From a virus: a stretch of 64,000 nucleotides of DNA. The notes under the pieces were generated by a model. That model worked only from the letters and a program-made list of their open reading frames with translations, had not been told where the DNA came from and made no database searches. The translations under genes and the position numbers were made by a program. Position 1 is the first letter of the stretch, and every line of letters begins with the position of its first letter. This document shows, piece by piece, positions 8,109 to 63,175 of the stretch. The stretch spans positions 62,001 through 126,000 of the IMG/VR virus record IMGVR_UViG_3300042878_001826; one strand, given 5' to 3'.

Positions 8109-8142
8109 AATACCGATATTATATCACATCTAATAATTTTTA

Positions 8143-8856: not shown

Positions 8857-8857
8857 T

Positions 8858-16971: not shown

Positions 16972-17168
16972 AATACTTGAAAAGATTCAACGAATCCAAA
17001 AAAGATAAAGTTGAAATATCTGAATTGATAAAACGTAAAAATGCTGGAGAGAAATTGACTGATGATGAAATGTATTTAGTACACCGTCATTTTTATGAAA
17101 CTAGTAAAGAATATAAAGATCATTATAATAAAATGATAAATAAATTATTAAATAAAGATAAAAAATAA
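16968..17168 (+). CDS. Small tagged protein (N-terminal MKYLKRFNES)
   Basis: 66 aa, helical, highly charged. The first ten residues carry the capsid-targeting-like tag shared with a dozen genes in this window. 'ELIKRKNAGEKLTDDEMYLVH' follows. Start overlaps the previous stop by 4 bases. A packaged internal protein is possible by analogy to T4 internal proteins; this is inference. Confidence 0.6.
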   Translation: MKYLKRFNESKKDKVEISELIKRKNAGEKLTDDEMYLVHRHFYETSKEYKDHYNKMINKLLNKDKK

Positions 17169-18889: not shown

Positions 18890-19177
18890 CTATAAATCCG
18901 GTCCTTTCAATATTTCTTCTAATCTAATATCTCGATATTCGGCGATTGCTTTTTCAACGTTGATTGCTATATTTTTTGTGTACCACTTTCTCCATTTTGG
19001 ATTTATTCTGGAAATATATTCGACTTCATATCCTATTTGATGTCGACCCGAACCGACTATTGTTCCAGGATCGAGCAGTATTTCTGGATTTATGTCGTAG
19101 TGGGGGTTCATAGTCACTTCGTGCTGGTAGATGACTCTCTTCACCGCGGTGATTCTATTCAATATATCTTTTCCCAT
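18890..19177 (-). CDS. Hypothetical protein
   Basis: 95 aa. Begins 'GKDILNRITAVKRVIYQHEV' and ends with a helical segment 'EYRDIRLEEILKGPDL'. The tail (R-D-I-R-L-E-E-I-L) resembles, in a displaced form, the C-terminal tag seen at 48-56 kb. It overlaps the upstream gene by 23 bases. No family recognised. Confidence 0.55.
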   Translation of the reverse strand: MGKDILNRITAVKRVIYQHEVTMNPHYDINPEILLDPGTIVGSGRHQIGYEVEYISRINPKWRKWYTKNIAINVEKAIAEYRDIRLEEILKGPDL

Positions 19178-25220: not shown

Positions 25221-27005
25221 ATGATATCAAAATATAATAACTTTATTTTAGAAAAAGCTTTAAACGAGTCTACTTTATATGTTTCTCCTGAGATACTTAA
25301 AAGGCTACAAAAGATTGGTAGTGAAATATCAAGAGATTTAATAAATCAGTTAGGACAGGATATAAAGCCAGATGCAACATTCTTGGACGAAAGTGATAAA
25401 GAAGGTGAACTTACTTTCATCACGATAAGAAATGCAATCAAAAAACTAAGTGATATATATCATGGTGATCCAGATTTCGTTAAGAGTATTGGGGAGCCAG
25501 CAGTTGATACTTTTGCAATAAATATTTCAACCATGTTAAAGAACAACGAACCTGATTTCTGGACTCAATCAAGAAATCCTATAAAGATAGGTAGATTCAT
25601 AAGACAGGTATTTCCAGGTAAATATTCAGATGTTGATATTGAGAAGTTTGTTAACGCATTCAAAAGCTCCGATGAAAAGGATCTACAGAAGTTCATTCTA
25701 GTAGAAGGAGAAGATATTGCAAAATACTATTGGCACGAAAACTATAAAGAGATGGCAGGAGACTTAGGAAGATCTTGTATGGCAAGAAAGAAATTCTTCA
25801 ACATCTATACTCAAAATCCAGAAGTTTGTAGACTTTTAGTTCTTTTAGAAGATGACAAAGTGATAGGAAGGTCTCTTATATGGAAGTTAGATAGAAACAA
25901 CGGAGAAAGTGAGATTGAGTATTTCATGGATAGACAATATACCATAGAGCAATCAGATGTCATCAAGTTCACAAACTACGCAAAAGAAAACGGATGGGCA
26001 TATAAAACATACAACAACCACCATAGCTATTCAAACATAACCCATTTAGGAAGAGAGATGAACTGTGAGATAGTCGTAAAGATAGAAAAGAAGAATTATG
26101 ATGAGTATCCTTATATGGATACACTCAAAAGATTTAATCCAAAGACAGGAGAACTTTTCAACGATACGGATAAAGATGGAAATGAAGGTCAGTTTCTATT
26201 AGAAGATACTGATGGAGACTACACGGAAATAAAATCGGGAAAATGGTCTGAATATTATGATACAGAAATAGATGAAGATGATGCTGTATGGTCTAATGCA
26301 TATGGCGACTGGTTACCTGAGAACAGAGCAGTTCACATAGAAACAGGAAGAGGTAGAAGTAATACTGGATGGTTTCCAGAAGATGACGAAAACATCTACT
26401 ACTCGGAATGGGAAGATGAATATCTACACATAGACGACTGTAGATATTCTGAAGACAAAGACGAATACATACTGAGTAGAAATTCTATATCGGCTGCATA
26501 TAAAATATATGAAGATGGAAGTATAGAAACAAGCTGGTATCACCAAGACGACGACCATTGCATAGATATAGACAGAACGATGAGATGGTATGAAATACTA
26601 TCGGAAAAAAATTCTGATTGGGAAGATGTTTCTAGAATGAATCTAAAAATCACAGATAGATGGAGTACAGTATATAAAGAATTCTATCCTAAGATATTCA
26701 AAGTATTCTTATATAGAATGAAAAATTCAAAAGATAAAATCTATCTAAGCGTAAGAGATGCGAAGATACTTGGATTTGAATATGACAAAGATGATATGAT
26801 TGAGATAGATGACTTCGAATACCACAAGAGATTGAATGAAGCTTATGTAAATGATAAAAGTTTATTTGATACTTTAACAGAGAAATTGGAGAATGATCTT
26901 ATTCCGAATACAGAAAGAATCGCGGATGAAGGCGAAGAAGATATGAAACAAATGTATGTCAATAGGCTTCAAAGAGCTTGGGACAAAATGGGTTATGATA
27001 AATAA
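25221..27005 (+). CDS. Large N-terminally tagged protein, paralogue of the 56501 gene
   Basis: 594 aa. Begins 'MISKYNNFILEKALNES', the tag in which I-L-E is a good prohead-protease site. 'DIAKYYWHENYKEMAGDLGR' then 'SCMARKKFFNIYTQNPEVCR' and 'GRSLIWKLDRNNGESEIEYF' match the equivalent segments of the 385-aa protein at 56501-57658, so they share a ~200-residue core. The C-terminal half is acidic and Tyr/Trp/Asp-rich ('DDAVWSNAYGDWLPENRAVH'). No catalytic family recognised. Follows the adhesin by 10 bases; ends at a bidirectional terminator. Confidence 0.65.
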   Translation: MISKYNNFILEKALNESTLYVSPEILKRLQKIGSEISRDLINQLGQDIKPDATFLDESDKEGELTFITIRNAIKKLSDIYHGDPDFVKSIGEPAVDTFAINISTMLKNNEPDFWTQSRNPIKIGRFIRQVFPGKYSDVDIEKFVNAFKSSDEKDLQKFILVEGEDIAKYYWHENYKEMAGDLGRSCMARKKFFNIYTQNPEVCRLLVLLEDDKVIGRSLIWKLDRNNGESEIEYFMDRQYTIEQSDVIKFTNYAKENGWAYKTYNNHHSYSNITHLGREMNCEIVVKIEKKNYDEYPYMDTLKRFNPKTGELFNDTDKDGNEGQFLLEDTDGDYTEIKSGKWSEYYDTEIDEDDAVWSNAYGDWLPENRAVHIETGRGRSNTGWFPEDDENIYYSEWEDEYLHIDDCRYSEDKDEYILSRNSISAAYKIYEDGSIETSWYHQDDDHCIDIDRTMRWYEILSEKNSDWEDVSRMNLKITDRWSTVYKEFYPKIFKVFLYRMKNSKDKIYLSVRDAKILGFEYDKDDMIEIDDFEYHKRLNEAYVNDKSLFDTLTEKLENDLIPNTERIADEGEEDMKQMYVNRLQRAWDKMGYDK

Positions 27006-27038: not shown

Positions 27039-27755
27039 TTATTTGGTGGCTACTAATACTTTTACTCTTGGAAACTTCGTGCTGAATATTCTATGGTATC
27101 CATCAATCACTCGCCATTTGTCTCCAGACTTCTTTACAATCCCTCTGATACCATTGTAGTTTTTATCAGAATAAAAATCTAAGTCTTTTTTCATTACTTT
27201 ATCTAAATGCTTTTCGGTACCGAATATGATGTCGTCTTTATCGATTGTAATAGATTCGTAGTTTGAATCTGTAATCTCTGGAAGAATCTTACCGTATTCT
27301 ACTTTCAAAAGATACTCAATCTTTTCTTTTAAACTAGGTAATGAAAATACAGTCATAAGCTCTTCTTCAATCTTGTCTGCAATAGATTCTTTTATTCTGA
27401 CATCGTTTACTTCTTGTCCATAGTACCCACCTTCAACTTCAATATCCCAGTTATCAGATTCCCATATTTTATAGGATCTAATAATTCTATCAATCGTATA
27501 GATGTCTATGTCTTTTCCAATACCATAAAGAACTTCGTTGATTGTGTTGTTTCTATTAGCAGCCTTTCCTTCTTCGAAAAATTCGTCGTATATTTTTTTG
27601 ACTATTAAAGATACATCAACAGACTCAACAGACTCATTATGAATACTACCACATCTACATATACCTTCTTCATCACACCCATAATTTTCACAATCATAAG
27701 TATAGCTATAGTCTACGTAAACACCGTTGTATTGAAATTTTATGTCTTTGAGCAT
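27039..27755 (-). CDS. ParB/sulfiredoxin-like domain protein with Cys cluster
   Basis: 238 aa. The C-terminal 'IRGIVKKSGDKWRVIDGYHR' is the ParB/Srx-fold nucleotide-binding strand-turn (x-V-I-D-G-x-H-R), followed by 'VLVATK'. Near the N-terminus 'CENYGCDEEGICRCGSI' holds five Cys in 15 residues, a likely zinc or Fe-S site. Middle is helical. ParB-like domains in phages occur in DNA-modifying or nuclease-type proteins, but the function here is unproven. Overlaps the next upstream gene by 16 bases. Confidence 0.6.
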   Translation of the reverse strand: MLKDIKFQYNGVYVDYSYTYDCENYGCDEEGICRCGSIHNESVESVDVSLIVKKIYDEFFEEGKAANRNNTINEVLYGIGKDIDIYTIDRIIRSYKIWESDNWDIEVEGGYYGQEVNDVRIKESIADKIEEELMTVFSLPSLKEKIEYLLKVEYGKILPEITDSNYESITIDKDDIIFGTEKHLDKVMKKDLDFYSDKNYNGIRGIVKKSGDKWRVIDGYHRIFSTKFPRVKVLVATK

Positions 27756-28045
27756 CTTCTTCTTAGTTTATATTTTCTACCCTCTATTGTTTTGTAGCCA
27801 TAAAACTTACCGTCTCTCATAGAGATATAGATTTCTTTGAGTATGTTTCCTGAAAGGTCGTGCCAGCCAGAATGAACCAGTTCTTCCTCACAGAATGGAT
27901 ACCATTGATTCAGTCTGTTGACTTTTCTCTTACCATCAACATTGATTGGATTATCTAAATAAAGAAACTTAGAATCACCAAGATTCTCGTTCTTCTTATA
28001 CATCATCTTTATTCTTGAAACAAGGTGTGCCTTTATGAAATTCAT
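27740..28045 (-). CDS. Hypothetical basic protein
   Basis: 101 aa, basic, ends 'KYKLRRRCSKT'. 'NQWYPFCEEELVHSGWHDLSGN' suggests a small beta domain. Start overlaps the cREC gene by 4 bases. No family recognised. Confidence 0.6.
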   Translation of the reverse strand: MNFIKAHLVSRIKMMYKKNENLGDSKFLYLDNPINVDGKRKVNRLNQWYPFCEEELVHSGWHDLSGNILKEIYISMRDGKFYGYKTIEGRKYKLRRRCSKT

Positions 28046-28461
28046 ACTGCTTGCCCGTTTACGACTCCTTTGTGGTATCCTCTGAAGTCTGGATAGGTAA
28101 TACCTTCTACTTTGTCTAAGTAGTTGGTGATTGCCCCAATGATGTTTTGACGACCATTAGTATTGTCAGAGTGAACGTACCAGCTTTTAGGAAATGATTT
28201 GTCATTATCTAAGCAGTATCCGATTACATAGTCGACTGCATTTTTTCCCGTCATTTCGTTTCCGTCCGCGTCAAAGCAAGCCAAGTCGTGGTCGAAAGAG
28301 ATCAAGTCAATGTCGTCGAATTTCGCGTTTACAACGTCTACAAAGTCGTCGTAGGTTCTAACAATAGTCCAGTCAGAATCTTTGGAATAAGCTACTCCTA
28401 ACCCTTTAGAAGAGTTGTGTGCCATGTTCGCGGATCTGATGTCGTCTAAAAATAAGTTCAT
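28042..28461 (-). CDS. Cyclic-phosphate-processing receiver-like (cREC) protein
   Basis: 139 aa. 'MNLFLDDIRSA' (Asp6, Asp7), 'WTIVRTYDDFVDVV', 'IDLISFDHDLA' and 'WYVHSDNTNGRQNIIGAI' match the cREC family of receiver-derived domains that occur with RNA-repair enzymes and are thought to process cyclic phosphates. Length fits the isolated domain. Other RNA-end-processing genes are scattered elsewhere in this window. Confidence 0.7.
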   Translation of the reverse strand: MNLFLDDIRSANMAHNSSKGLGVAYSKDSDWTIVRTYDDFVDVVNAKFDDIDLISFDHDLACFDADGNEMTGKNAVDYVIGYCLDNDKSFPKSWYVHSDNTNGRQNIIGAITNYLDKVEGITYPDFRGYHKGVVNGQAV

Positions 28462-28462
28462 T

Positions 28463-28633
28463 TTAGTCTAAGTAAATGTCTAAGTATTCAGTGAAGCAAT
28501 AGTCTAATAGTACGCCTTGGTACATCAGCTGTTCGTATTCAAAAAGGTTATCACACTTTGACAATCTGTCGATGATGAAGTTCGCGTAGATTTGTCCAAA
28601 GTATTGAGCGATTTGTTTTAGTTTATTTTTCAT
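28463..28633 (-). CDS. Small hypothetical protein
   Basis: 56 aa, helical and aromatic ('MKNKLKQIAQYFGQIYANF'). Start set at 28633, where ATGA overlaps the previous gene's stop. No function recognised. Confidence 0.55.
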   Translation of the reverse strand: MKNKLKQIAQYFGQIYANFIIDRLSKCDNLFEYEQLMYQGVLLDYCFTEYLDIYLD

Positions 28634-30358: not shown

Positions 30359-30961
30359 TTATCTTTTTATGAAATTGTCTAATATTATGAACGTGTCTCT
30401 TTTATTTTCTGGATGAAAAAGAAGTCCGTATCTTTTTTTAGAATCACTTAGTATTGCAGCAATCTTTCCGTTTATTGTTGCATGAACTTCAAATTCTTTA
30501 GGACAATCGATAGGATTATCGTTGAACGCAAACGAAACAGGAGTTGAATCTAAATCTATTCCTTCAAAAAGCCAATGTTCTTTTATGTTGCCTAATATAG
30601 ATTCTCCTATAGTAAGTTCAGTTCCACTATTTACCTTTGCACCATAGTGTATTGCCATGGTCTGCATACCAAAACATATACCTAATAAAGGACAGTCTAG
30701 TTTATCCATTGCCAACGCGGCCAAAGAATAGTCGTCTTTGTTTGCTCTATAGTCAGATCCGGTTGATATAGCACATAATATTTTTTCTGCACCCAAAATT
30801 TCATTTAGCTTCGCCACATCGTCCACTACAATGTGTTCGATATTCCTATCTTTTAGATAAAGAACTATGTTTTCTAAATACTTTTTTTCAGGTGGTTTAC
30901 TGTTATCTATTACTAACACCTTTCCTATATCAAAACTTTCAAATCTTTTTATCCATCTCAT
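30359..30961 (-). CDS. Class I glutamine amidotransferase (GuaA-type) with N-terminal tag
   Basis: 200 aa. After the tag 'MRWIKRFESFDIGK', 'KVLVIDNSKPPEKKYL' begins a class I GATase fold; 'CPLLGICFGMQTMAIHYGAK' contains the nucleophile Cys in GxCxGxQ, and 'YGLLFHPENK' the catalytic His-Glu. The closest pattern is the amidotransferase subunit of GMP synthase. It delivers ammonia from glutamine to a partner that is not in view. The tag suggests that, if the analogy holds, it is packaged in the head. Confidence 0.75.
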   Translation of the reverse strand: MRWIKRFESFDIGKVLVIDNSKPPEKKYLENIVLYLKDRNIEHIVVDDVAKLNEILGAEKILCAISTGSDYRANKDDYSLAALAMDKLDCPLLGICFGMQTMAIHYGAKVNSGTELTIGESILGNIKEHWLFEGIDLDSTPVSFAFNDNPIDCPKEFEVHATINGKIAAILSDSKKRYGLLFHPENKRDTFIILDNFIKR

Positions 30962-41948: not shown

Positions 41949-43181
41949 CTATCCAAAAAGGTCTCCTGCGTCCGTAGCATCTGTGAAGCCATTTGTGTCA
42001 TCTTCTTCATCATCTTCTCCAACTATCTTGTTGAATTCGTTTTCTACCTCTTCGATCTCGTCTAATGACTTGAATCTAAAGTAGTCGTTTACAATCGGTG
42101 CCATTCTATCTAAGACGCCTGTTGTGAAAACCTCTTGTGAGAATAGTTGTTTTGTAGTAACTGATTTGTTTAGGTGTGATACATACCATCTGTTTCCTCC
42201 AGGTACAAAAGTCATTTCACCAGTAGCTTTGTTTACATCCATTTTACCCTTAGCAATACCAATCTGATCCATATACTCTGGTCTACAAAAAGCATCTAAT
42301 CCTGTATAAGGGTTCATACCATTTGCAAAAGAGATATCAAATCTAATTTTCTTTGGTTTGGCCATTCTGTTTTTTGCAGTTTTAAACAATACAGAGATTC
42401 CTGATTGACCTAAGTCCATATCATCTTCTTCACCTGTTTTCAATTTTGATTTAGACATAAAGCCGATTACTGATGCAGAGTATAACAAACCATTACCACC
42501 TTTTAATTTCTCTTGTGGAAAAAGGTCCATTGTTAGATAAGTGTGGTTACATACAATCATTGGAATATCTAAGTATCCTAAGTCTGTGTTGATTGAACGG
42601 AACATAGAACCTAATGCTTTTGCTTTAGTCATATCCTGTTTGATATCACCTTTCAATAAATCTGCCTTTTCTTTGTTACTTGCCATTTGACCTAAAGAGT
42701 CTAATACAATCATTAGTTTAGGCAGTTCAAATCCTGCAAGCTTTTGTTCTTTCAAATCATCTATCAACTGAGTCAATAACATGTTTACATCTTCTACTTT
42801 GTTAGATCTGATTAATCTGAACTTTTCCAAAGAGTTGTCGATTCCAAACTTTGGTAAGTCTTCTAAGTCAATCGCTTGTTCTGTATCGATATAGATTACC
42901 GAATATCCGGCTCTCTGTGCGTGCTTTGATACTGAATAAGCGATGAACGATTTACCTGCACCGGATTCTCCAGCGAATGCCGTGATTCTGTTTGATGCAA
43001 CTCCACCACCTAGCAATCTTCCTGATAGTGCGGCGTCTAATAAATAAACTCCTGTTGTGATGAATGTTTTTTCTTTAATTTCCTTTTCTATTAAGATTGG
43101 AATAGATTTAGCTATGTTGTCTAATATAGAACCAACTTTGCTGAATTCGAATTTCTTTCCTTCTTTTACTGCTTTTGCCAT
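41949..43181 (-). CDS. uvsX: UvsX/RecA-type recombinase
   Basis: 410 aa. Walker A 'GESGAGKS' at residues 71-78 preceded by 'LLGGGVASNRITAFA'; 'SVIYIDTEQAIDLEDL' and 'KLMIVLDSLGQMASNKEK' (Walker B); 'IPMIVCNHTY' and 'GGNGLLYSASVIGFMSKSKL' are the UvsX core motifs. An acidic C-terminal tail (EDDEEDDTNGFTDATDAG) is like T4 UvsX. It drives homologous recombination and recombination-dependent replication. One of the firmest T4-like markers in the window. Confidence 0.93.
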   Translation of the reverse strand: MAKAVKEGKKFEFSKVGSILDNIAKSIPILIEKEIKEKTFITTGVYLLDAALSGRLLGGGVASNRITAFAGESGAGKSFIAYSVSKHAQRAGYSVIYIDTEQAIDLEDLPKFGIDNSLEKFRLIRSNKVEDVNMLLTQLIDDLKEQKLAGFELPKLMIVLDSLGQMASNKEKADLLKGDIKQDMTKAKALGSMFRSINTDLGYLDIPMIVCNHTYLTMDLFPQEKLKGGNGLLYSASVIGFMSKSKLKTGEEDDMDLGQSGISVLFKTAKNRMAKPKKIRFDISFANGMNPYTGLDAFCRPEYMDQIGIAKGKMDVNKATGEMTFVPGGNRWYVSHLNKSVTTKQLFSQEVFTTGVLDRMAPIVNDYFRFKSLDEIEEVENEFNKIVGEDDEEDDTNGFTDATDAGDLFG

Positions 43182-43285: not shown

Positions 43286-43999
43286 ATGAAGAAGATGGAA
43301 TTTTTAGAGAAAGCAAGAGAAAGGCACGGATATAAATACACATATCCTACTTTAAACGAGAAAGTTATATTGTCCGATAAGATTGATATAGAATATAATG
43401 GTGTTGAATATCAACAAAGTGTTGTCAAGCATTTAATGGGTCGATGTCCAGAGAAGTCGTCTACACGTCAGTCTACAGAAGATTTTGTTGAAAGAGCAAT
43501 AAATGTTTGGGGCGACAAATATGACTACTCTTTGGTACAGTATAAAAACATGCTTACTCCGATAACGATATTATATAGAGGTATAAAGTATGAGCAACGC
43601 CCTTCTTCACATTTAGAGGGTATGGCACCTGAGTTTAGAAAGAACGAAGAATCCATAATAAGAGACTTGCTGGATCAAAGCGACTTCAAAGGCGAGAGGG
43701 AGATAAAGGACTTTCTTAGAAAGTTCAAGATAGACTTCAAGCAGAACCATATGTTGGATAAGATTGAGTTTGACTTTTATCTTCCTTCTATAAGAGTTTG
43801 TGTAGAGTTTGATGGTATCTATCATTTTCAGTCGATAGAAGAGCTGGGTGGCTTGAATACCTATGAGAAATCAAAGATTGATGAAAAGATAAAGTCTGAC
43901 TATTGTGAAGACAACTATATTGATTTGGTTAAGATAAGGTATGACCAGATAGACAATATCTATATGATTCTTTGGGAGTGCTTGAAGAATAAGATTTAA
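43286..43999 (+). CDS. PD-(D/E)XK (Vsr/DUF559-like) endonuclease with DUF723-like repeats
   Basis: 237 aa. N-terminal 'RHGYKYTYPTLNEKVILSDK' and 'NVWGDKYDYSLVQYKNMLTP' are two copies of the homing-endonuclease-associated Y-D-Y repeat (DUF723). C-terminal 'GEREIKDFLRKFKIDF', then 'IEFDFYLPSIRVCVEFDGIY' with the D...ExD/K core and 'DEKIKSDYCEDNYIDLVKIR'. Start at 43286 fits the promoter motif. It runs opposite to uvsX in the gap to the next minus-strand block. A free-standing homing nuclease is plausible. Confidence 0.7.
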   Translation: MKKMEFLEKARERHGYKYTYPTLNEKVILSDKIDIEYNGVEYQQSVVKHLMGRCPEKSSTRQSTEDFVERAINVWGDKYDYSLVQYKNMLTPITILYRGIKYEQRPSSHLEGMAPEFRKNEESIIRDLLDQSDFKGEREIKDFLRKFKIDFKQNHMLDKIEFDFYLPSIRVCVEFDGIYHFQSIEELGGLNTYEKSKIDEKIKSDYCEDNYIDLVKIRYDQIDNIYMILWECLKNKI

Positions 44000-44442
44000 G
44001 ACTTTTTCACTTCGATTACAAAGTAGTCGAGACCTTTTATTCCATCTATTAAAGGCTGGTTAAAAGTGGTTTCTACTACATAGTCTGGATGTTCTTCTTT
44101 GAGCTTTTCCATATTTGCTTCAAGTTCATCTAAAAAAGCTGCAAATGCTTTGTTGTATTCTGTAAATTCTGATATGCTTCCTTTGAATCCGTCTGGTGTA
44201 TGCTCGATATTCAGCTGAGGACAGATAACAAATATGATTACGTTGGTAACATTTTTGGAAGTGGCGTCTCTGTCTTCTATCTGTTTCTTTGCACCAATAT
44301 CTGATACTTTATTCCAATATGATATCTCACCAAGTTCTTCGCCATCTTTCTTCTCTTCGACCATGTCGATAAAACAGAATTTGATATACTCGATATCTAA
44401 ACCTTCTTCTATGCTTTCGTTAAACCTCTTCAGATGCCTCAT
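43996..44442 (-). CDS. Tagged hypothetical protein (MRHLKRFNES)
   Basis: 148 aa, last gene of a five-gene run of tagged proteins. After the tag comes an acidic helical and strand mix ('VTNVIIFVICPQLNIEH', 'AFLDELEANMEKLKEEHPDY'). Overlaps the convergent nuclease gene by 4 bases. No family recognised. Confidence 0.65.
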   Translation of the reverse strand: MRHLKRFNESIEEGLDIEYIKFCFIDMVEEKKDGEELGEISYWNKVSDIGAKKQIEDRDATSKNVTNVIIFVICPQLNIEHTPDGFKGSISEFTEYNKAFAAFLDELEANMEKLKEEHPDYVVETTFNQPLIDGIKGLDYFVIEVKKS

Positions 44443-44456
44443 TCTCTTTATATTTT

Positions 44457-44912
44457 TTACAATCTATCCAATACGAATGCCTCTGGTCCGAATACCCAGT
44501 CAACACCTTCTTTGGTGCGAACTATTAAATTTGGTCGGATTAAGTTAGAAGATTCAACCCTTATAAAAGTTACCGGTTCGTCTAGGTTTATTTCATCTGT
44601 AAAAGATGGTGAATATTTCTTAATAAGATGGTTCTTATAGTGTTCCATGAATCTTAATTGATCTCCTTCTTTGACTTCATGAATTTTGTTATCACCTAAC
44701 ATAATTTCGGCAGATTCATTCATTTTCTTTTCGGATACTTCTTCTTCGCCTTCCTCACCTTCCTCGTTTGCTTCTTCCCATTCTTTTTGCATTCTTTCCT
44801 TCTCCTTTTCTTCATCAAGGTAGTTAGGTAGGATTATCTCTACAGGTGTTTCACTGTTCCATTTGTGTGCGAACTTCTTTGGGAAGTTTTTGTATGACTC
44901 TAAGTATTTCAT
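44457..44912 (-). CDS. Tagged acidic hypothetical protein (MKYLESYKNF)
   Basis: 151 aa. Tag followed by an acidic low-complexity patch 'EEANEEGEEGEEEVSEKK' and a beta-rich C-terminal domain ('VTFIRVESSNLIRPNLIVRT'). No family recognised; the patch suggests an internal or DNA-mimic type role, which is speculative. Confidence 0.6.
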   Translation of the reverse strand: MKYLESYKNFPKKFAHKWNSETPVEIILPNYLDEEKEKERMQKEWEEANEEGEEGEEEVSEKKMNESAEIMLGDNKIHEVKEGDQLRFMEHYKNHLIKKYSPSFTDEINLDEPVTFIRVESSNLIRPNLIVRTKEGVDWVFGPEAFVLDRL

Positions 44913-44921
44913 TCTCTTTTA

Positions 44922-45272
44922 TTATTTGTTAAATCCGAAAAAACTTTTTATTTTAGATCCAAGTGTTGGCTTTTCTTCTTCAACTTCTTTTTCTTCTTCT
45001 TTTTTAGAATCTGTGCTTTGGTTTCTGTATTGGCCATAATCACCAGTTGCCCATCCTGTGCTACGGTAATAGTTTTCCTCTTCCTCTTCTGTCATTTTTT
45101 TAGCAGGAACTGCTTTAGGTGTAATAGTAGGTTGAGTTGATTGAGGATTTTTTGCTTTTCTTTCTGCTTCTATCTTTTGGATTTCTGCTTCGATTTCCTC
45201 TTCTGTTGCACCCGGGAAAGCGTTGGCTCTCCAGTCGTGGCTGTTTTCGTTAAATCTTTTTAAGTGTTTCAT
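44922..45272 (-). CDS. Tagged hypothetical protein (MKHLKRFNEN)
   Basis: 116 aa. Start at 45272 lies just after the upstream stop (45274). The body is disordered ('STQPTITPKAVPAKKMTEEE', then KKEEEKEVEEEK) and ends in 'LGSKIKSFFGFNK', a short amphipathic helix. Low complexity fits an internal virion protein. Confidence 0.6.
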   Translation of the reverse strand: MKHLKRFNENSHDWRANAFPGATEEEIEAEIQKIEAERKAKNPQSTQPTITPKAVPAKKMTEEEEENYYRSTGWATGDYGQYRNQSTDSKKEEEKEVEEEKPTLGSKIKSFFGFNK

Positions 45273-45273
45273 A

Positions 45274-45594
45274 CTATCTAAATTTGTTTGGGTATATTGA
45301 TCTCCACTCATGTCCCTGTGGTACGTCTGATGCTCTTACACCAAAAACTTTCTTTTCAGGACTTACGTCTTTTCCGTCCATCAAAAAATTGTTGTTGCTT
45401 GCCCAGACTTCCATAGTTCTGTTGATTGGTTGACCGACAGAAAACGGAAATCTTATTCCCGTCTTGTTATCTATATTCGAGATTCTTCTATCAGGGGAAA
45501 TAGAAACGGTTATCAAAAGTCTTGGATTTCTCTGACTAATGAAAACTATTTCGTTTTTACCAAACTCTTCGTTGAATCTCTTTAAGTATTTCAT
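45274..45594 (-). CDS. Tagged hypothetical protein (MKYLKRFNEE)
   Basis: 106 aa, beta-rich ('EIVFISQRNPRLLITVSISP', 'RTMEVWASNNNFLMDG'). Member of the run of five tagged genes; stop and next start are one base apart. No family recognised. Confidence 0.65.
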   Translation of the reverse strand: MKYLKRFNEEFGKNEIVFISQRNPRLLITVSISPDRRISNIDNKTGIRFPFSVGQPINRTMEVWASNNNFLMDGKDVSPEKKVFGVRASDVPQGHEWRSIYPNKFR

Positions 45595-46343
45595 TATTTG
45601 AAGTTGTTGAATCTTTTTAAAGAACGTCTTTCGTATTGTTGAGCATCTTCTTGACCTTCTTTTCCTTTACGTACAATGTTGGGGTTGATGTTAATTTTAT
45701 CATAGTTACTATCTGAAAATCCGATATAATTACCAAATTCGTCAAATCCTTCTTCGTCCACTTGAACTTGTCTTTCTTCTTCGTCTTCTTGCATTCTTTT
45801 TTTCCTCTGATTCTTGTCTAAGCCATCATAATTACCAAATTCGTCAAATCCTTCTTCGTCTTCTTGAATATCATTAAATTCAAAGAACTTTTTCAATCCT
45901 TCGAAGTGTTGATCTTCTTGACCTTCTTCTTCATCATCATAACCTAAGTCATCAGAACCGTCAGCTCTCATTGCACCGAAATCTTCGTCGTGCTCTGGAT
46001 CGTAGTTATCATCATCATCAGAGTAGTTCTCATCATCACCTTCACCTATTTTATTATTACTTAAAAGTGTGTCAAATATTTCTATACCATCAACACCTTC
46101 TGATCTAAGTTTGTGATAGAATTCCATAACTTCTTGGTTAGATGGTTCATTATCACCAAATTCTTCTTCGAATCTAGCTAAAACGTCTACTGGTTCTTCG
46201 TCATTTTGAGAATATTGAGCATCATGTGTATCATGTTCGTCTTGGGCATCTCTATCTGCATAGATTTGGTCGTTGTTCATTTGATCCATTTCTTCATCAG
46301 CAGCAAGGCCATCAAAGTTTTCGAATTTTTTAAGATTTCTCAT
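45594..46343 (-). CDS. Tagged acidic protein with internal duplication (MRNLKKFENF)
   Basis: 249 aa, very acidic. An 11-residue unit EEGFDEFGNYDG/I recurs in about 35 residues' distance, and the DNA repeats 'ACCAAATTCGTCAAATCC' at 45731 and 45836. A copy of the tag-like 'SLKRFNNFK' occurs at the C-terminus. Acidic, repeated and disordered: possibly a scaffold-core or internal protein; inference. First gene in the block of tagged genes. Confidence 0.6.
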   Translation of the reverse strand: MRNLKKFENFDGLAADEEMDQMNNDQIYADRDAQDEHDTHDAQYSQNDEEPVDVLARFEEEFGDNEPSNQEVMEFYHKLRSEGVDGIEIFDTLLSNNKIGEGDDENYSDDDDNYDPEHDEDFGAMRADGSDDLGYDDEEEGQEDQHFEGLKKFFEFNDIQEDEEGFDEFGNYDGLDKNQRKKRMQEDEEERQVQVDEEGFDEFGNYIGFSDSNYDKININPNIVRKGKEGQEDAQQYERRSLKRFNNFK

Positions 46344-46383
46344 ATTTCTTTTTTGTTTTTTTTCTTATATACTATATATTAAT

Positions 46384-47253
46384 TTATAAAACCGATAAAT
46401 ATCTCTCGCCTCTATCACATAGTATTGTTATCACATCTCCTTCCATTTCAGGATATTTTTCTAAAAGTCTTTCAGCTGCCAATATATTTGCACCCGAGCT
46501 GATTCCCACAAATAAACCATTCTCACTAGCAAGTCTTTTTGCTCTATCTATTGCATCCTGTGTTGAAATAACCATTATGTCATCTACCAGATTCAAATCT
46601 ACTAAAAACTTACTACCATCACCAATCCCTTGTATTCCATGAAGACCTGGTTTACCACCACTCATTACCGGAGATTCTGCAGGTTCTACAGCAACCGTTT
46701 TCATAAAAGGATGATGCATCTTTAGTAGCATTGAAGTTCCCATTAAAGTGCCGCCGGTTCCTGTTCCTGAAACAAACGCGGCAATTCTGTTTGTATGTTG
46801 ATGTAGTATTTCTGGTGCTGTTGTTTCGTAGTGTGCTTTCGCGTTTAGTGGGTTTGAAAATTGTCTAGGATTGAAATAACCATTCTCTTCGGCCATTTTA
46901 TCTCTTAAAGCAATTGCATCATCAAATCTTCCATCTTCTACTTCAATAAGTTCTGCTCCGTATATCTTTAGTATCTTTTTTCTTTCTTCACTCATGTTCT
47001 TTGGCATGACTATGATTACTTTGTAACCTCTTTCTGCACCAAGCATAGCAAATGCTATTCCAGAGTTTCCCGAAGTGGCTTCTATCAATGTATCTCCTTT
47101 CTTTATAAGTCCTTGTTTTTCGGCATCATCTATTATATAGACTGCCATTCTGTCTTTTAAAGATCCGCTTGGGTTGTGTCCTTCGAATTTTGCAAATATT
47201 CTTTCTGATATTTTTACCAGCGGTGTCTGTCCGACGTTTTTAGAGAATTTCAT
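46384..47253 (-). CDS. cysK: Cysteine synthase (O-acetylserine sulfhydrylase family)
   Basis: 289 aa. Start at 47253 (MKFSKNVGQTPLVKI) is chosen because earlier in-frame starts lie in a divergent promoter region. 'EGHNPSGSLKDRMAVYII' has the PLP lysine, 'EATSGNSGIAFAM' the substrate loop, 'VSGTGTGGTLMG' the phosphate cup, and 'GISSGANILAAERLL' the C-terminal motif. It makes cysteine from O-acetylserine and sulphide; CysM/CysK or cystathionine synthase relatives cannot be separated by eye. A complete enzyme gene in a phage is unusual. Confidence 0.88.
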   Translation of the reverse strand: MKFSKNVGQTPLVKISERIFAKFEGHNPSGSLKDRMAVYIIDDAEKQGLIKKGDTLIEATSGNSGIAFAMLGAERGYKVIIVMPKNMSEERKKILKIYGAELIEVEDGRFDDAIALRDKMAEENGYFNPRQFSNPLNAKAHYETTAPEILHQHTNRIAAFVSGTGTGGTLMGTSMLLKMHHPFMKTVAVEPAESPVMSGGKPGLHGIQGIGDGSKFLVDLNLVDDIMVISTQDAIDRAKRLASENGLFVGISSGANILAAERLLEKYPEMEGDVITILCDRGERYLSVL

Positions 47254-47301
47254 TAAATACTTTTTTTTGTTTATATATTTGTCGGTGTCAGTTGTGTTTC
47301 G

Positions 47302-47309
47302 TATATTTG
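47302..47309 (+). promoter_or_regulatory. Bacteroidota-type -7 box TATATTTG
   Basis: Plus-strand TATATTTG, 14 bases before the ATG at 47324; a second TATATTTG lies at about 47271. Confidence 0.55.
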
Positions 47310-47323
47310 TAAAAAATAAAAGC

Positions 47324-47599
47324 ATGACTAGAATATTTAGATTCGACGAGTTCAACAAAATAGAGTCCACAATCTTTAGATTGAAGACTATCGAAAGAAC
47401 TGATGAAGAAGTTTGTTATACAGGAACATTGACAATAAACGGTGAAAAGATAGTAGGTCAAATATTCTGTGAAAAAAACGGAGATTTAGAGTGCTTTCAG
47501 TTCTATGATAAGAATGGTAAAGATATATGTGACACATACGGACAAAGTATAGTCGAGTCAATAATAAAAGAAAAAATAAAAAGATTAAAAAGAAAATGA
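47324..47599 (+). CDS. Tagged hypothetical protein (MTRIFRFDEF)
   Basis: 91 aa. Start at 47324 follows the promoter box; a longer frame would start inside the cysteine synthase leader. 'CYTGTLTINGEKIVGQIFCE' and 'GDLECFQFYDKNGKDICD' suggest a small beta sheet. N-terminus resembles the FDEF/FESF variant of the tag. Overlaps the next gene by 4 bases. Confidence 0.55.
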   Translation: MTRIFRFDEFNKIESTIFRLKTIERTDEEVCYTGTLTINGEKIVGQIFCEKNGDLECFQFYDKNGKDICDTYGQSIVESIIKEKIKRLKRK

Positions 47600-56348: not shown

Positions 56349-56504
56349 ATGATAGACAACATTGCATACGATATGATAGAGAATCTTGAAGCTTCTAAAA
56401 TGGTAGACTTTTTAAGAATGATGAATGATTATAAAGCTACTCTTCTAATGCAAGAGATAAACAAATCTGAATCAGAAGACTTCTCTGACGATTTACCTTT
56501 TTAA
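56349..56504 (+). CDS. Micropotein ending in an SSB-tip-like sequence
   Basis: 51 aa: helical body ('YDMIENLEASKMVDFLRMMN') then acidic tail 'SESEDFSDDLPF'. The final DDLPF matches the conserved C-terminal tip of bacterial SSB (DDDIPF in E. coli), which recruits RecQ, RecO, PriA and other partners. Has its own promoter. Overlaps the convergent tagged gene by 4 bases. A decoy that competes for SSB partners is plausible. Confidence 0.6.
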   Translation: MIDNIAYDMIENLEASKMVDFLRMMNDYKATLLMQEINKSESEDFSDDLPF

Positions 56505-57658
56505 TTCGGTAAATCGTATTTTAGATTTATAGAGGTATCAACTCCATAATTCTTCAAAGCTATATGACCATCACCACAATTATTACAGATTACTTTAATA
56601 CCCAAATCTCTTTCGAAGCATTTACCTTTGCAGGTTCCACATTCATCATAGCTTCCATCGGTGTAGTGTAACCAATTACAATCCTTCGACGGAAGGTTTG
56701 AAAGAGTATTCTGTTGCTTGTTCAAAAAGCAAAGTGTGTCTACGAATGGTGCTTTGTCTACGTCTCCGTTTAGCTTTACGGTTATTTCTCCATATACATC
56801 TTTACCACCATATACAAACTCAACATTGCTTTTGGTATGACTATTCATATATTTCTTGTATAGGAATCTGTTTTCGTTTGCAAACTTTTTGAATTTTATC
56901 ACATCAGAGTCGTTGTTTGAATATACTCTATCCATGAAAAAATTAGACTCACACGGAGAATTCTTTAGTTTCCAAACCAATGCCCTTCCAGATATCTGGT
57001 CGGTTTCTTTGTCTACTAGTATCAAAAGTTGAACTTTTGTTTCGTTTTGAGTGTATAATTTAAAAGTTTTCTTTCCTTTTTCTGCCATACAAGAACTACC
57101 TAAACTTCCTTTATCACTTAAATATTTTTCGTTATTGTAGTATTTGGCTATTTCTTCTCCTTTTACAAGTCTGAACTCCATGTTGCTGCTTGATTCTGAT
57201 GCTTTGTATGCGTTTACGAAAGCTTCTAATTCACTATCACTTACACTAAACTTTCCTTTCTTACGAAATGTTGTTACGCCAGATGATGTATTTAAAACGT
57301 TTATGATATATTTAACAAGTTTTCCAATCTTCATTTCGGATCTACCCATAGAATATGGCAGTCCTGCATCATATTCAGAATCCCACTCTTCAGGTACTTT
57401 GTTGTTCATCGTAAAGCTGACCATATCTGCTTTGTCTGTAGTGTCGAAGAAGTTCTGAGCTATTTCATCATCTTCTATATACTGTTCGTCTTCTATATAC
57501 TTTCTTATGAATCTAGCAATCTCTGCAGTTTTTCCGTTGTCCAATGACAATTCGAAAAGCTTTCTCAAAAAATCGGATGATGCATGAAGTTGTCCTTCTA
57601 ACATAAGTTTTATTTCTTCGTTAAGCTTTTCTAATATAAACTGGTTATACTTTCTCAT
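56501..57658 (-). CDS. Large N-terminally tagged protein, paralogue of the 25221 gene
   Basis: 385 aa. Start at 57658 (MRKYNQFILEK) gives the tag and fits the divergent promoter; a longer frame would begin with poor residues. 'IAKYYNNEKYLSDKGSLGSS' and 'CMAEKGKKTFKLYTQNETKV', then 'GRALVWKLKNSPCESNFFMD' align with the 594-aa protein. The C-terminus has a Cys cluster 'CGTCKGKCFERDLGIKVICN', a zinc-ribbon-like motif absent from the paralogue. No catalytic family recognised. Confidence 0.65.
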   Translation of the reverse strand: MRKYNQFILEKLNEEIKLMLEGQLHASSDFLRKLFELSLDNGKTAEIARFIRKYIEDEQYIEDDEIAQNFFDTTDKADMVSFTMNNKVPEEWDSEYDAGLPYSMGRSEMKIGKLVKYIINVLNTSSGVTTFRKKGKFSVSDSELEAFVNAYKASESSSNMEFRLVKGEEIAKYYNNEKYLSDKGSLGSSCMAEKGKKTFKLYTQNETKVQLLILVDKETDQISGRALVWKLKNSPCESNFFMDRVYSNNDSDVIKFKKFANENRFLYKKYMNSHTKSNVEFVYGGKDVYGEITVKLNGDVDKAPFVDTLCFLNKQQNTLSNLPSKDCNWLHYTDGSYDECGTCKGKCFERDLGIKVICNNCGDGHIALKNYGVDTSINLKYDLPN

Positions 57659-57708: not shown

Positions 57709-58257
57709 ATGAGAAATAGAGCTCAGCAAACGAATGGTGATAAAGATTGGACTCCATATTTAAGAGACTTCAAGCTAAGTATTATTACTGGCGAACGAGA
57801 AATAAAAATCAGCCAAGAATGTTTAACGATATTCGACGAGCAGTTAGCATTCATCAGAGACGAATTCCCTAATGATATCATAACAGGGTCGCTGGGTCTT
57901 AACATATTTGGCTTTCTGGAACGAGAGATATCAGATATCGACATCTTGATAAAGGATAGAGAAAGATATAGTCAATATAATAGTGGTGAATACTATCGAC
58001 GAACAAAAAACAACGAGCTGGACATGGAACGCAGACTTGGTTATTTGGAAATAAAGCATAGAAAGCGTGGAATCTGGGGCAAGCTTTTCCCTAAGAAATA
58101 TAAAGTAGACTTCTTCGAAGACAAAGGCACGAGATATTCCGAAGTAAAATACAAAGGACATGTCTACAAAGTGCAGCATCCTATAGATATAATAGAAACA
58201 AAAATAACACTCGAAGGTAGCAAGCATTATCGTGATCTTTATTGTATATTCGGATAA
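57709..58257 (+). CDS. Nucleotidyltransferase-fold protein (MNT/Cca-like)
   Basis: 182 aa. 'NDIITGSLGLNIFGFLEREI' with Gly60-Ser61 and 'SDIDILIKDRERY' with Asp76/Asp78 match the G-S...D-x-D core of pol-beta-type NTases. 'VHPIDIIETK'-like ending ('VQHPIDIIETKITLEGSKHY') fits the family's third Asp region. It could add a nucleotide to RNA ends or a protein. Contains LRDFKLSII near the N-terminus, a tag-like string not at the end. Confidence 0.7.
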   Translation: MRNRAQQTNGDKDWTPYLRDFKLSIITGEREIKISQECLTIFDEQLAFIRDEFPNDIITGSLGLNIFGFLEREISDIDILIKDRERYSQYNSGEYYRRTKNNELDMERRLGYLEIKHRKRGIWGKLFPKKYKVDFFEDKGTRYSEVKYKGHVYKVQHPIDIIETKITLEGSKHYRDLYCIFG

Positions 58258-58263
58258 TTTACT

Positions 58264-58271
58264 TATCTTTG
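58264..58271 (+). promoter_or_regulatory. Bacteroidota-type -7 box TATCTTTG
   Basis: Plus-strand TATCTTTG, four bases (TCAT) before the ATG at 58276; predicted leaderless start. Confidence 0.7.
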
Positions 58272-58275
58272 TCAT

Positions 58276-58911
58276 ATGAAATACGCAAGCTTTAGATATA
58301 TTTTTCCTCCACGTCCAAAAAATCCAATCCCAAATACAGAGTTGGGTTTTTGGGACAATGGATCTTTGATAGCACAGCCAAAATTAAATGGTTCTAACTG
58401 TCTTATCTTCACCAATGGTGAGAAGCATATTTCTATGAACAGACACAATGGTCGTCTTACAAACTTTCAGTTGAAAGATGATGAAATCAAATCACTTTAT
58501 AAAGGAACAGGTGGATGGACAATCTTGAATGGTGAATATCTTAATAAGAATAAACAGGATGAAAACAGAAAAGCTTTCAACCATAAGTTTGTCATATTCG
58601 ACATTCTTGTAAATGATGGTGATTATCTTGTGGGAAAAACTTTTGAAGAAAGAATCACGTTATTGGATAATATGTTCGGACAGAACGAATGTGAGAAAGA
58701 CTACCTTTATGGTATTTCTGAAAACGTTTACCGTGTTAAGTCATACCAAAATCAGTTCAATATGCTTTATGATACTCTGACACCAATCGATTTGATTGAA
58801 GGTCTTGTTTTAAAAAGAAAGACTGCAAGATTGGAAATGGGTACTTCTGAGTTGAACAACGTGAAGAGTCAAATCAAATGTAGAAAGGAAACAAAAAACT
58901 ATAAATACTAA
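58276..58911 (+). CDS. Minimal ATP-dependent DNA/RNA ligase (nucleotidyltransferase domain)
   Basis: 211 aa. Motif I 'AQPKLNGSNCLIF' (Lys36-x-x-Gly), III 'WTILNGEYLNKN', IIIa 'HKFVIFDILVNDG', IV 'LIEGLVLKRKTA', V 'VKSQIKCRKETKN'. Only the nucleotidyltransferase core is present, without an OB domain. Close in layout to small RNA ligase families; DNA versus RNA specificity cannot be told. Strong companion to the ligase at 51809. Confidence 0.8.
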   Translation: MKYASFRYIFPPRPKNPIPNTELGFWDNGSLIAQPKLNGSNCLIFTNGEKHISMNRHNGRLTNFQLKDDEIKSLYKGTGGWTILNGEYLNKNKQDENRKAFNHKFVIFDILVNDGDYLVGKTFEERITLLDNMFGQNECEKDYLYGISENVYRVKSYQNQFNMLYDTLTPIDLIEGLVLKRKTARLEMGTSELNNVKSQIKCRKETKNYKY

Positions 58912-60013: not shown

Positions 60014-61420
60014 TTATTTGTTTAAAAATCTTAGTAAATCTGATTTGATATCTTTGTTCCATTCTTTATCATCTACATCTCCGTAGTCCGAGAAGTGTGG
60101 TTTAAGTTCATATCCAGTTTTTTCAGTTTTGTAGCAGTATTCGCTGAAGATAGTCTCCAGACTTTCTTGTTCTAAGTCGTCTACCTCAAAATCCTCGATC
60201 CAGTCATCGCTGAAACGTATAAGATAGAAAGTCTCTTCTTCTTTGTATGTTCTCCAGTTTCCGTTTTCGTCTTTATTGAATTTGGACTTCTTCTCCACTT
60301 CTCTTGTTCCTTTTATATATGTGAAGTTGTCGTCGAGTATTTCGTCGAACTCGTCTTTTATCTGTTGTAGGTTTGCCTCTGCATGTGCGTTGGATGCCCA
60401 ATCTCCGTAGGATTGCTTGATATCCGAAAGTATTTCGGAATCGTTAGAAATCTGCTTCAGAGTATTGTAGAATCTTTCTTTAAGAAGATATTCTGTTATA
60501 TCTTTGGTTTTTCTTTCTTCTTTAGTTGACTCTGGTTCTCCTTCTTTGTCTTCTATCATTACTTTTATGGCATCATACACCATGTCGTCGCATTCGTCGC
60601 CTATATAACTAACAAATTCTTCCAATCCACCAGCGTCCTTTATCAAAGCCTTCACGAAGAGAGACTTGTTCTCTTTGTCTAGATAGTATTCAAATAGAGA
60701 GTTAAAATCTGGCTGGTAGTCATTACCACAATAGCTGTCATATATACCCGATCCGTCTATCAGCAGATCCTTATAGTTCGAATCTCTGGAAAGAAGTAGG
60801 TCTGATAAATCTTCGAGGTTGTATTCTACGTATATACTGTCATCTTTTTCTTCGTATCTACTCCAGTCGTAGTATTTTGCAAGCTGTGTCTGTGTTATCT
60901 TTACTGCTTGTTTCTTTTTGACTAAAAATTCTACGTAGCCATCAGCCTCTGTTATGGTAGGTTCTTTACCTTCGACATTGTTCCAAGTCTCTGTAAAGAA
61001 TAAGCCTTCTTTTGCTATTATTCCTTCTATATCACCTATCTCTCCATCATTATCTAATATAGAAATATCACCATCAGCTTCTTCTGCTATTATACTATAA
61101 GCAAACTTTAGATTGTCAGAAACGTCATTGCTTGATACTTTTTCACTTGTGATGAGTATGCTTATTGCCGGTGTATTGTTTCCAGACTCCATCTTCTTTG
61201 TGAATCTTTCCACATAATGTGTTCTACTTTCTTTGTAGTTCCACATTCTTTCCTCTCCAACAAATCCATATCTGACTTCAATCTGATATCCTTCATCTAT
61301 AGATTCTTGGAAGTAGTCTCTTATATCGTCTTCGTCCAACATCCAAGGATTGAATTCCTCTTCCGTCTCTTTTGATTCTTTTATGTAAGAAATAAAATCA
61401 TTCCATCTTTTTATCTTCAT
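60014..61420 (-). CDS. Large N-terminally tagged acidic protein
   Basis: 468 aa. Tag 'MKIKRWNDFISYIKESKE', then a strongly acidic alpha/beta protein ('EEEFNPWMLDEDDIRDYFQE', 'VEKKSKFNKDENGNWRTYKE'). Repeated Y/W-D/E pairs. Transcribed divergently from the next tagged gene, each with a TTTAATATATA motif. No family recognised; a packaged protein is inferred. Confidence 0.65.
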   Translation of the reverse strand: MKIKRWNDFISYIKESKETEEEFNPWMLDEDDIRDYFQESIDEGYQIEVRYGFVGEERMWNYKESRTHYVERFTKKMESGNNTPAISILITSEKVSSNDVSDNLKFAYSIIAEEADGDISILDNDGEIGDIEGIIAKEGLFFTETWNNVEGKEPTITEADGYVEFLVKKKQAVKITQTQLAKYYDWSRYEEKDDSIYVEYNLEDLSDLLLSRDSNYKDLLIDGSGIYDSYCGNDYQPDFNSLFEYYLDKENKSLFVKALIKDAGGLEEFVSYIGDECDDMVYDAIKVMIEDKEGEPESTKEERKTKDITEYLLKERFYNTLKQISNDSEILSDIKQSYGDWASNAHAEANLQQIKDEFDEILDDNFTYIKGTREVEKKSKFNKDENGNWRTYKEEETFYLIRFSDDWIEDFEVDDLEQESLETIFSEYCYKTEKTGYELKPHFSDYGDVDDKEWNKDIKSDLLRFLNK

Positions 61421-61450: not shown

Positions 61451-61461
61451 TTTAATATATA
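61451..61461 (+). promoter_or_regulatory. Phage motif TTTAATATATA
   Basis: Plus-strand TTTAATATATA, four bases before the ATG at 61466; divergent with the one at 61425. Confidence 0.7.
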
Positions 61462-61465
61462 TGCT

Positions 61466-63175
61466 ATGAGATATCTAAAACTATACGAAGCGTTTTCATC
61501 TAATACGCTTTCAAAGCTTTATAAGCATCTAAAGAAAAAGAATGCTAGTAATAAAAGTCTTAATCAATTCAAAGAAGACATGGAAGTAATCGCAAAGTCT
61601 TTTGATATTCCTATGGACAAAATATCAGACGAAGATGTTTCTTATATTTCTAGAAGAAAGGCTCTTCCGCTTAGATCGGAAGCAAAGAATGATTCTGGAA
61701 TATGGGCCATAAAATTTTGGTTTGATAAAGACGGAGAATATATCGGTACTTCAGGAACAGGAAACGCAAAGTTTGCTACTTCAAATGTGCCAAGTACTAG
61801 TAGTTATCACAGTAAACCATATTCAAAAGCACAATGGGATAAGATTAAAAAATCAATGACTTTTGGCTTTCCAAAAACTGGGTATTTAATACCTGTACTC
61901 CATGATGAATATGATCAGTTAAAAGATGGTGATGAGGTTATAGTATGTCTTTGTGATGAGGAAGAATATGATGACTATCCAGATTCTAGAGTAGATAGGT
62001 TAGTATGTGGAAAGATATTTGTGGATGGAAACGTATATGTCATACATGACAACGATATCGCGGAAGGATCGGAACCAAGTAATACTCCATCAGAAGAATA
62101 TCCGGACATAGAATGGGGTGAGTATTCCTGGAGTATTGTGAGTATCAATGGAGGTGTAGGTTCCGATCATTTCAACCTTCATAAAGTCATAAAGTCCGAT
62201 ACTCCAATATCTTACTATAGTGAAAAAGTTGATAATGAAGAAGGTAATAATCCTTTTGAATTCAACCTTTCTTTAGAAGAGATAGAAGATAATAAGTTGA
62301 TTCTTTCTGACTGGTCAGGAAACATTGATGAAAAGAATAAAATAGAAAAAGAGGCAGACTTTGCAGTTATTTTATACGTCGATGGTATTCTAAGTAGAGG
62401 ATTGAAAAGTAAATCCGCTACTTCCGAAGAAAGAAAAGAAACTAGAAAAGGAGCAATCGCTTTGATGTCCGACGAAGACTTCAAGCAAGCAAACATAGAG
62501 AAATATCTCAACCAGTTAGTTGAGAAGATTGGAATCACTCCAGAATCAGTGGAGCTTAAGAATCTACAGAAGGTCGCAGCGACTATAATGTCTACTGGAA
62601 TATCAGACTCATATGCACTTTTTTCAATTATGAGTCGAGATTATAGGGCTATAGATAATTTGGCATATCAACTAAAGAGATTGATATCAAGTGTTTCTCT
62701 ACAAAATCCAGAAATGATTAAATTTGTCTACAACGAATTTGCAGGTGATTATAGAAGAACTAAAAAAAATGCGAGTAATGCATATAAATCAAAAAAAGCT
62801 TCAATGGATATGTTAAAAGAAAGAGAATATCTAAAACCTTTATATGATTCTATACTCAGAATAAGTAATAAAATATCCAAAGGAATAGTATCTAAAGAGA
62901 TTACTAGAGGAGAAGATTTAAAAAAGATATTATTCAAACTTGAAAGTATTGAATCAATGATGAGAGATGATGATTTTGAGCTTTCTCGACAGTTCAGAGA
63001 CTTCTCGGAAAATGTAAGATATGGAGTGAGTGATTCCGACATGGTTATAAGAAGACTAGAAAATATGGATGGAGACTATTCTACTTTAACAAACGACAAT
63101 AAGACGACTCTTTTAGAAATGGATCTGAAAAAACTTAAAGAAATAGAATCTTATGTAGATGATATAATGAAATAA
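61466..63175 (+). CDS. Large N-terminally tagged protein
   Basis: 569 aa. Tag 'MRYLKLYEAFSS': L-Y-E then Ala is a textbook prohead-protease site (L-x-E). Middle has beta-rich domain 'IWAIKFWFDKDGEYIGTSGT' and 'KTGYLIPVLHDEYDQLKDGD', and the C-terminal 300 residues are helical ('LSRQFRDFSENVRYGVSDSD', 'LLEMDLKKLKEIESYVDDIM'). No enzyme family recognised. Ends at a bidirectional terminator. Confidence 0.65.
   Translation: MRYLKLYEAFSSNTLSKLYKHLKKKNASNKSLNQFKEDMEVIAKSFDIPMDKISDEDVSYISRRKALPLRSEAKNDSGIWAIKFWFDKDGEYIGTSGTGNAKFATSNVPSTSSYHSKPYSKAQWDKIKKSMTFGFPKTGYLIPVLHDEYDQLKDGDEVIVCLCDEEEYDDYPDSRVDRLVCGKIFVDGNVYVIHDNDIAEGSEPSNTPSEEYPDIEWGEYSWSIVSINGGVGSDHFNLHKVIKSDTPISYYSEKVDNEEGNNPFEFNLSLEEIEDNKLILSDWSGNIDEKNKIEKEADFAVILYVDGILSRGLKSKSATSEERKETRKGAIALMSDEDFKQANIEKYLNQLVEKIGITPESVELKNLQKVAATIMSTGISDSYALFSIMSRDYRAIDNLAYQLKRLISSVSLQNPEMIKFVYNEFAGDYRRTKKNASNAYKSKKASMDMLKEREYLKPLYDSILRISNKISKGIVSKEITRGEDLKKILFKLESIESMMRDDDFELSRQFRDFSENVRYGVSDSDMVIRRLENMDGDYSTLTNDNKTTLLEMDLKKLKEIESYVDDIMK

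Follow-up and report, generated by a model that had tools for sequence, protein, structure and literature searches.

Internal proteins of phage T4 are the closest described counterparts of the proteins considered here: IPI, IPII and IPIII have in common an N-terminal tag of about ten residues, followed by unrelated, hypervariable bodies. In IPIII, which starts MKTYQEFIAE, targeting to the head depends mainly on residues 4 and 7 and processing on residues 8 and 10; the T4 protease gp21 cuts after L/I-x-E, and an aspartate at position 10 keeps targeting while blocking processing (PMC9026906). Ejection proteins of the phiKZ/SPN3US type are likewise numerous internal proteins of the head, and a gp21-related protease cleaves them after E, but their propeptides are mostly longer than 100 residues without a common short tag, and cleavage follows S/A-x-E or A-x-E, whereas the tags described below carry hydrophobic-x-E (PMC5694885). 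In this study, we analysed a stretch of 64,000 nucleotides (the window; bases 62001-126000 of the 150,251-base virus record IMGVR_UViG_3300042878_001826), in which an original prediction made from the letters alone had noticed a capsid-targeting-like N-terminal tag on at least 13 proteins. We provide evidence that this tag is, with high probability, a T4-type capsid-targeting sequence, greatly expanded in a clade of megaphages and imitating their scaffold.

The record is probably a fragment, and judged from core-gene sequence it is a piece of a Mahaphage-type megaphage genome. Relatedness to genomes of 634-735 kb was found on UvsX (window 41949-43181, minus strand), which shares 83-84% identity with its counterparts in LR745206 (634 kb) and LR756502 (642 kb), and 48-54% with those in LR756501 and LR756504 (735- and 636-kb genomes). 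Among the complete genomes reported by Al-Shayeb et al. 2020, these four are the largest; they were assigned to the Mahaphage clade, with Bacteroidetes as predicted hosts (PMC7162821). One simple gene caller was used for our record and its relatives, among which LR756502 is complete with 883 open reading frames (ORFs), and residues 2-19 of the predicted proteins were submitted to an unsupervised motif search.

Unrelated seeds converged in LR756502 on the motif K[HY][LI]K[KT][YF][NKE]x[FS], present in about 17% of the 883 ORFs, with a log-likelihood gain of 975 vs 134-155 for shuffled sequences and 155-170 for internal segments. The motif also emerged in LR756501 (543 vs 154-167 for controls) and LR756504 (319 vs 146-161); its signal was weaker in the two short records, our own and G001. 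Two forms were distinguished: form A, with the pattern MKHLK[RKT][YF]NE[SF] (e.g. MKHLKRFNES, MKHLKTYKIFES and MKYIKLFEAF), and form B, with the pattern M..K[KR][YF]xx[FY][IL]xE^[SEA] (e.g. MISKYNNFILEK, MRKYNQFILEK and MKIKKYTQFLNES). Counting a protein as tagged when it scored above 8 bits for form A on the LR756502-trained motif or carried the form-B core, we found at least 18 tagged among the 186 proteins of our 150-kb record (no internal controls), 155 of 883 N-termini in LR756502 (one internal control), 55 of 941 in LR756501, 40 of 556 in the first two thirds of LR756504 and 21 of 146 in G001, with 0-1 internal matches in each of the last three. On 51 other UvsX-bearing contigs, the same LR756502-trained motif marked 146 of 1167 genes, spread over 42 contigs, with two internal matches. 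The tag is thus confined to the extreme N-terminus and nearly absent from internal positions, and its scope, at least 18 proteins in the record and up to about 155 in a relative, exceeds the 13 first proposed. Our literature search found no description of such tags in megaphages.

All 13 start sites and peptides of the original prediction are present in the sequence, and 11 of them pass the motif; about 0.06 would do so by chance, given that 0.45% of internal 18-mers (111/24,664) pass. The scoring motif had been learned unsupervised on a different genome (LR756502). Nine score 14-20 bits as form A and two (25221 and 56501) hold the form-B core, while 47324 and 60014 are marginal. Window coordinates are as follows (aa, amino acids):
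16968-17168, plus strand: MKYLKRFNES, form A, 66 aa, 18.9 bits
17177-17359, plus strand: MKHLKRFNEA, form A, 60 aa, 20.3 bits
25221-27005, plus strand: MISKYNNFILE, form B, 594 aa, member of a multi-copy family, form-B core, tagged relatives
30359-30961, minus strand: MRWIKRFESF, form A, glutamine amidotransferase class I, 16.0 bits, PF00117 at 2.2e-14
43996-44442, minus strand: MRHLKRFNES, form A, 148 aa, last operon gene, 20.2 bits, tagged orthologues in L040, L022, L023 and L043
44457-44912, minus strand: MKYLESYKNF, form A, 151 aa, 14.2 bits, tagged orthologues in L040 and L043
44922-45272, minus strand: MKHLKRFNEN, form A, 116 aa from the tag start, 18.1 bits; an upstream ATG extends the ORF to 44922-45311, and the tag begins at 45272
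45274-45594, minus strand: MKYLKRFNEE, form A, 106 aa, conserved body, 16.4 bits
45594-46343, minus strand: MRNLKKFENF, form A, acidic protein of 249 aa, first operon gene, 14.1 bits
47324-47599, plus strand: MTRIFRFDEF, marginal tag, -2.6 bits, without form-B core
56501-57658, minus strand: MRKYNQFILE, form B, 385 aa, same family as 25221, form-B core
60014-61420, minus strand: MKIKRWNDFISYIKES, near form-B (marginal), 468 aa, one position short of the strict core, followed by IKE-S
61466-63175, plus strand: MRYLKLYEAF, form A, 569 aa, 17.5 bits

As predicted, five of these genes form one contiguous operon on the minus strand (43996-46343). Orthologues of operon genes in L040, L022, L023, L043, L042 and L060 keep the tag, which supports the called starts. 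Homologues of 45274 occur in 14 loci, and most of those listed are tagged (e.g. MKHLKSYNEG and MKHIKIFEEF), those of L059, L039 and L041 being untagged as read; homologues of 61466 start MKNKHILLFEAF in LR756502 and MKHIKLFEAF in L022 and L023. Further tagged proteins lie outside the window at record positions 9547, 25814, 27267, 50294, 56708, 57611, 58172 and 138071.

The comparison with T4 is closest for form B, in which the two aromatics, the I/L and the E stand exactly at the spacing of IPIII (aromatic at i and i+3, I/L at i+4, E at i+6). The equivalents of the targeting residues Y4 and F7 are present in form B by definition, and [FY]xx[FY] was recovered unsupervised in LR756501; in form A the first aromatic is found in 87% and F/Y at the second position in about 61%. 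On a matrix derived from 88 form-B tags of megaphages, the T4 peptide KTYQEFIAEA scores 16.2 bits, and none of the 158,068 internal windows of LR756502 scores as high. At the cleavage-motif positions, form B has I/L/V in 96% and E in 92%, so the proposed L/I-x-E at the end of the tag holds for form B, and in its strict sense for only about 40% of form A, where the remaining tags mostly carry F/Y-x-E or T-F-E. In a wider definition, a hydrophobic-x-E-small/acidic site within residues 5-22 was found in 68% of tagged proteins, the respective values for untagged and shuffled proteins being 17% and 21%. Applied to T4, the form-B pattern selects three of 250 ORFs: IPII, IPIII and gp61.1. The last, a hypothetical protein (18966-19130, minus strand, in L202), starts MKTFKEFIKE and matches the full pattern; by sequence it may be an overlooked internal protein. 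Megaphages differ from T4 in the number of tagged proteins (three by the same pattern vs 55-155 per genome where most or all of the genome was measured), and in the addition of the second, looser form A.

Like T4, the megaphage clade has a gp21-like protease and a gp23-like capsid protein. The search for a gp21-like protease called for by the original prediction gave a divided answer: no credible gp21 or gp23 match was found in our own record, which is a fragment, whereas the protease domain was found in 8 of 10 relatives searched, by matches below the Pfam cut-off that are yet conserved, and the gp23-like capsid gene in 9 of 10. The gp21-like domain is part of a protein of about 700-800 aa and precedes the capsid match by about 2.4 kb; behind the domain follow 10-12 tandem 14-residue repeats of the type ISYSEYIAENLDKN, so that the repeat unit YSEYIAENLDKNI, which holds the tag core, and the protease belong to the same polypeptide. 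This fusion of protease with a scaffold built of tandem repeats of the tag core is a further difference from T4, and in each of the four genomes holding it the fusion has the most internal matches to the form-B matrix. The repeats are predicted by AlphaFold to form one long helix (predicted local distance difference test, pLDDT, about 70-84); the rest of the fusion model is poor, and the protease domain was modelled too weakly to be used. In the capsid precursor, EYAEFHQINE-NAYVN is a putative cut site of tag type.

Repeats and tags are both present in LR756502, LR756501, LR756504 and G001, LR756500 has degenerate repeats and only two weak tags in 100 kb, and Lak-A1 and PTm1 have a fusion without the repeat and no tags. 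For Lak-A1, neither form was found in 150 kb sampled with TAG read as Gln, and another, weak motif occurred too seldom to support a claim. GAP32, Munch and PTm1 also combine protease and scaffold in one polypeptide, but PTm1 lacks the YSEYIAEN repeat and, like MaF61, no tag was found when it was scanned. PA5oct, intended as a proteomic anchor as its annotation marks virion proteins, likewise gave no tag. A separate tag dialect, MK[TS][LI]xxL[YF]E[AS], which falls outside both Mahaphage forms, characterizes the cultured phage PAU, with a host currently classified in Sphingobacterium (PMC3738902); this dialect occurs on 18 proteins clustered at the head locus (in L232-L243, e.g. PAU record 106051-108180 and 110719-113735), five of them between the portal and capsid genes and including one annotated internal capsid protein. 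Taken together, the form-B spacing, the 16.2-bit score of the T4 peptide, the head genes of relatives and the scaffold repeats bear out strongly, on the level of sequence, the T4-like reading first proposed.

Expression signals point in the same direction. The promoter-like element TAATATATA stands in the window at two sites:
46373-46381, minus strand: upstream of the five-gene operon
61453-61461, plus strand: upstream of 61466
The same element or close variants precede the portal, protease-scaffold and capsid genes of relatives (L098, L120), which makes it a candidate late promoter of the clade. It is enriched before tagged genes with an upstream gap, both pooled (odds ratio 3.0, p=2.7e-6) and in the 51 contigs (odds ratio 5.0, p=5.8e-8); a test of the plain ATATATA promoter in LR756502 was not significant.

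Tagged cargo mostly has no known domain. The tagged glutamine amidotransferase named in the original prediction is borne out by its PF00117 match. At record position 58172-58702 (L005:18172-18702), a tagged 2H phosphoesterase passes the cut-off for PF23474 (Acb1) with 29.1 bits vs 27, which makes it a putative Acb1-type enzyme directed against the cyclic-oligonucleotide-based antiphage signalling system (anti-CBASS), although 2_5_RNA_ligase2 (PF13563) scores higher, at 39.7 bits; its LR756502 homologue also starts with a tag, MIKKYLEFMKES. Tagged cargo of LR756502 includes GNAT, SET, methyltransferase, RNA ligase, HNH and lysozyme domains, a list in which individual members may be false tag calls. 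A multi-copy family of form-B-tagged proteins of 385-594 aa (record 27267-28568; window 25221-27005 and 56501-57658), with several more copies in LR756502, LR756504 and LR756501, has invariant SC, FMDRIY-like and D residues. The 25221/56501 family model gives a weak GNAT-like fold match (best PDB E 2e-3), and the structure model of 56501 has a low-confidence N-terminal helix and an ordered body.

The five-gene operon lies in an island between uvsX and a cysteine-synthase-like gene (window 46384-47325, minus strand, identified by eye only). Across other contigs (L042, L039, L060, L040, L022) the tagged genes of this island vary, a variability reminiscent of the hypervariable internal proteins in T-even phages. 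Also by eye, a probable glycosyltransferase and GDP-sugar gene cluster was seen at window 4661-12536 (e.g. 10358-11422 and 11613-12536), and DnaK-like (L004:10227-12119) and DnaJ-like (L005:1390-2460) chaperone genes outside the window.

The common N-termini might be no more than copied DNA, a translation-start cassette or recombination seam whose peptide has no function, and the clustering of tagged genes in LR756502 (60 adjacent pairs vs 27 expected) could reflect such cassette copying. However, all 139 tag 27-mers of LR756502 are distinct at the DNA level, synonymous codons in tags are those used at untagged gene starts, and the 30 bases upstream have only A/T richness in common; DNA-copy and translation-element explanations were rejected because of these codon tests, and we regard this reading as very improbable. 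With the first 16 residues removed, 138 tagged bodies of LR756502 fall into 125 families, and 11 of 46 body families show a swap of forms A and B on one and the same cargo, a replacement which speaks against copied DNA and argues that both forms do the same job; one such body carries MKYLKRYNENF in our record, whereas its tag is MEIKKYNQFLKES in L037 and MKHITPHKLFENK in LR756502.

A tag that acts as a protein could also be an address elsewhere, to a replication compartment, the host membrane or a host partner, with a coincidental likeness to T4. Basic, aromatic and amphipathic N-termini could indeed bind membranes or partners, but the residue spacing equals that of the genetically mapped T4 signal, no protein other than the protease-scaffold has arrays of the tag core, and ribosomal protein S21, which is expected to be cytoplasmic and serves as a negative control, is untagged here, though S21 N-terminal extensions have been described as basic and aromatic (PMC7162821); we consider this rather improbable. 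Somewhat less unlikely, but still not what we favour, is that the tag does target the prohead core while the proteins are assembly factors or DNA-condensing internal proteins that are not injected, or that the tag is kept. T4 IPIII has a suspected role in head assembly, and its position-10 aspartate variant is targeted without processing (PMC9026906); several tagged genes also adjoin portal and capsid genes. Against this stand cargo enzymes without obvious use in a capsid (the Acb1-type phosphoesterase, glutamine amidotransferase, GNAT, SET and RNA ligase), and the strong enrichment of a single cut site near the tag end.

Several observations weigh against a T4-type capsid-targeting sequence itself. 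Form A often lacks the second aromatic, and about 60% of it departs from strict L/I-x-E. The TAATATATA motif was refined after inspection, and its enrichment is not significant in LR756502 alone. In about half of the counted full-body homologue pairs one member fails the tag thresholds, several of these failing homologues showing variant tags or miscalled starts. The covariation of repeat and tag, though in the predicted direction, rests on few phages, head genes are absent from our fragment, and no virion proteomics for the clade was found in the literature.

With the capsid-targeting reading still favoured, we infer packaging, docking, cleavage and injection of the tagged proteins as follows. 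Many unrelated proteins would be made, probably late, from the same promoter type as the head genes, and the first 8-14 residues of these proteins, which probably fold into a short helix with aromatics three apart, would attach to the prohead core as mimics of a single unit of the 14-residue helical repeat of the scaffold. At maturation, the protease would cut after the tag glutamate ([I/L/F/Y]-x-E before S/A/N/E/G) while shredding the scaffold, freeing the cargo inside the head, which would then leave with the DNA and act early on host metabolism or defence. More tentatively, and with slightly less than even confidence, we propose a general packaging code in the largest phages, in which the scaffold is an array of binding units, tagged proteins co-assemble with it and are released by the fused protease, more than 100 effectors including counter-defence enzymes are injected, and the dialect of each lineage matches its own scaffold.

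Genes of megaphages are mostly without assigned function. Should the tag prove to be a capsid address, virion cargo would at once account for about 6-18% of the genes of these phages and would supply candidates for injected effectors and counter-defence proteins, and the T4 signal might itself work by imitating a scaffold repeat, a step unexplained in the T4 papers cited here. As a predictive motif, the tag can also serve virion proteomics and the loading of proteins into phage heads. Its spread suggests that the heads of these megaphages, with genomes of 630-735 kb, may be loaded in advance with an unusually large assortment of proteins.

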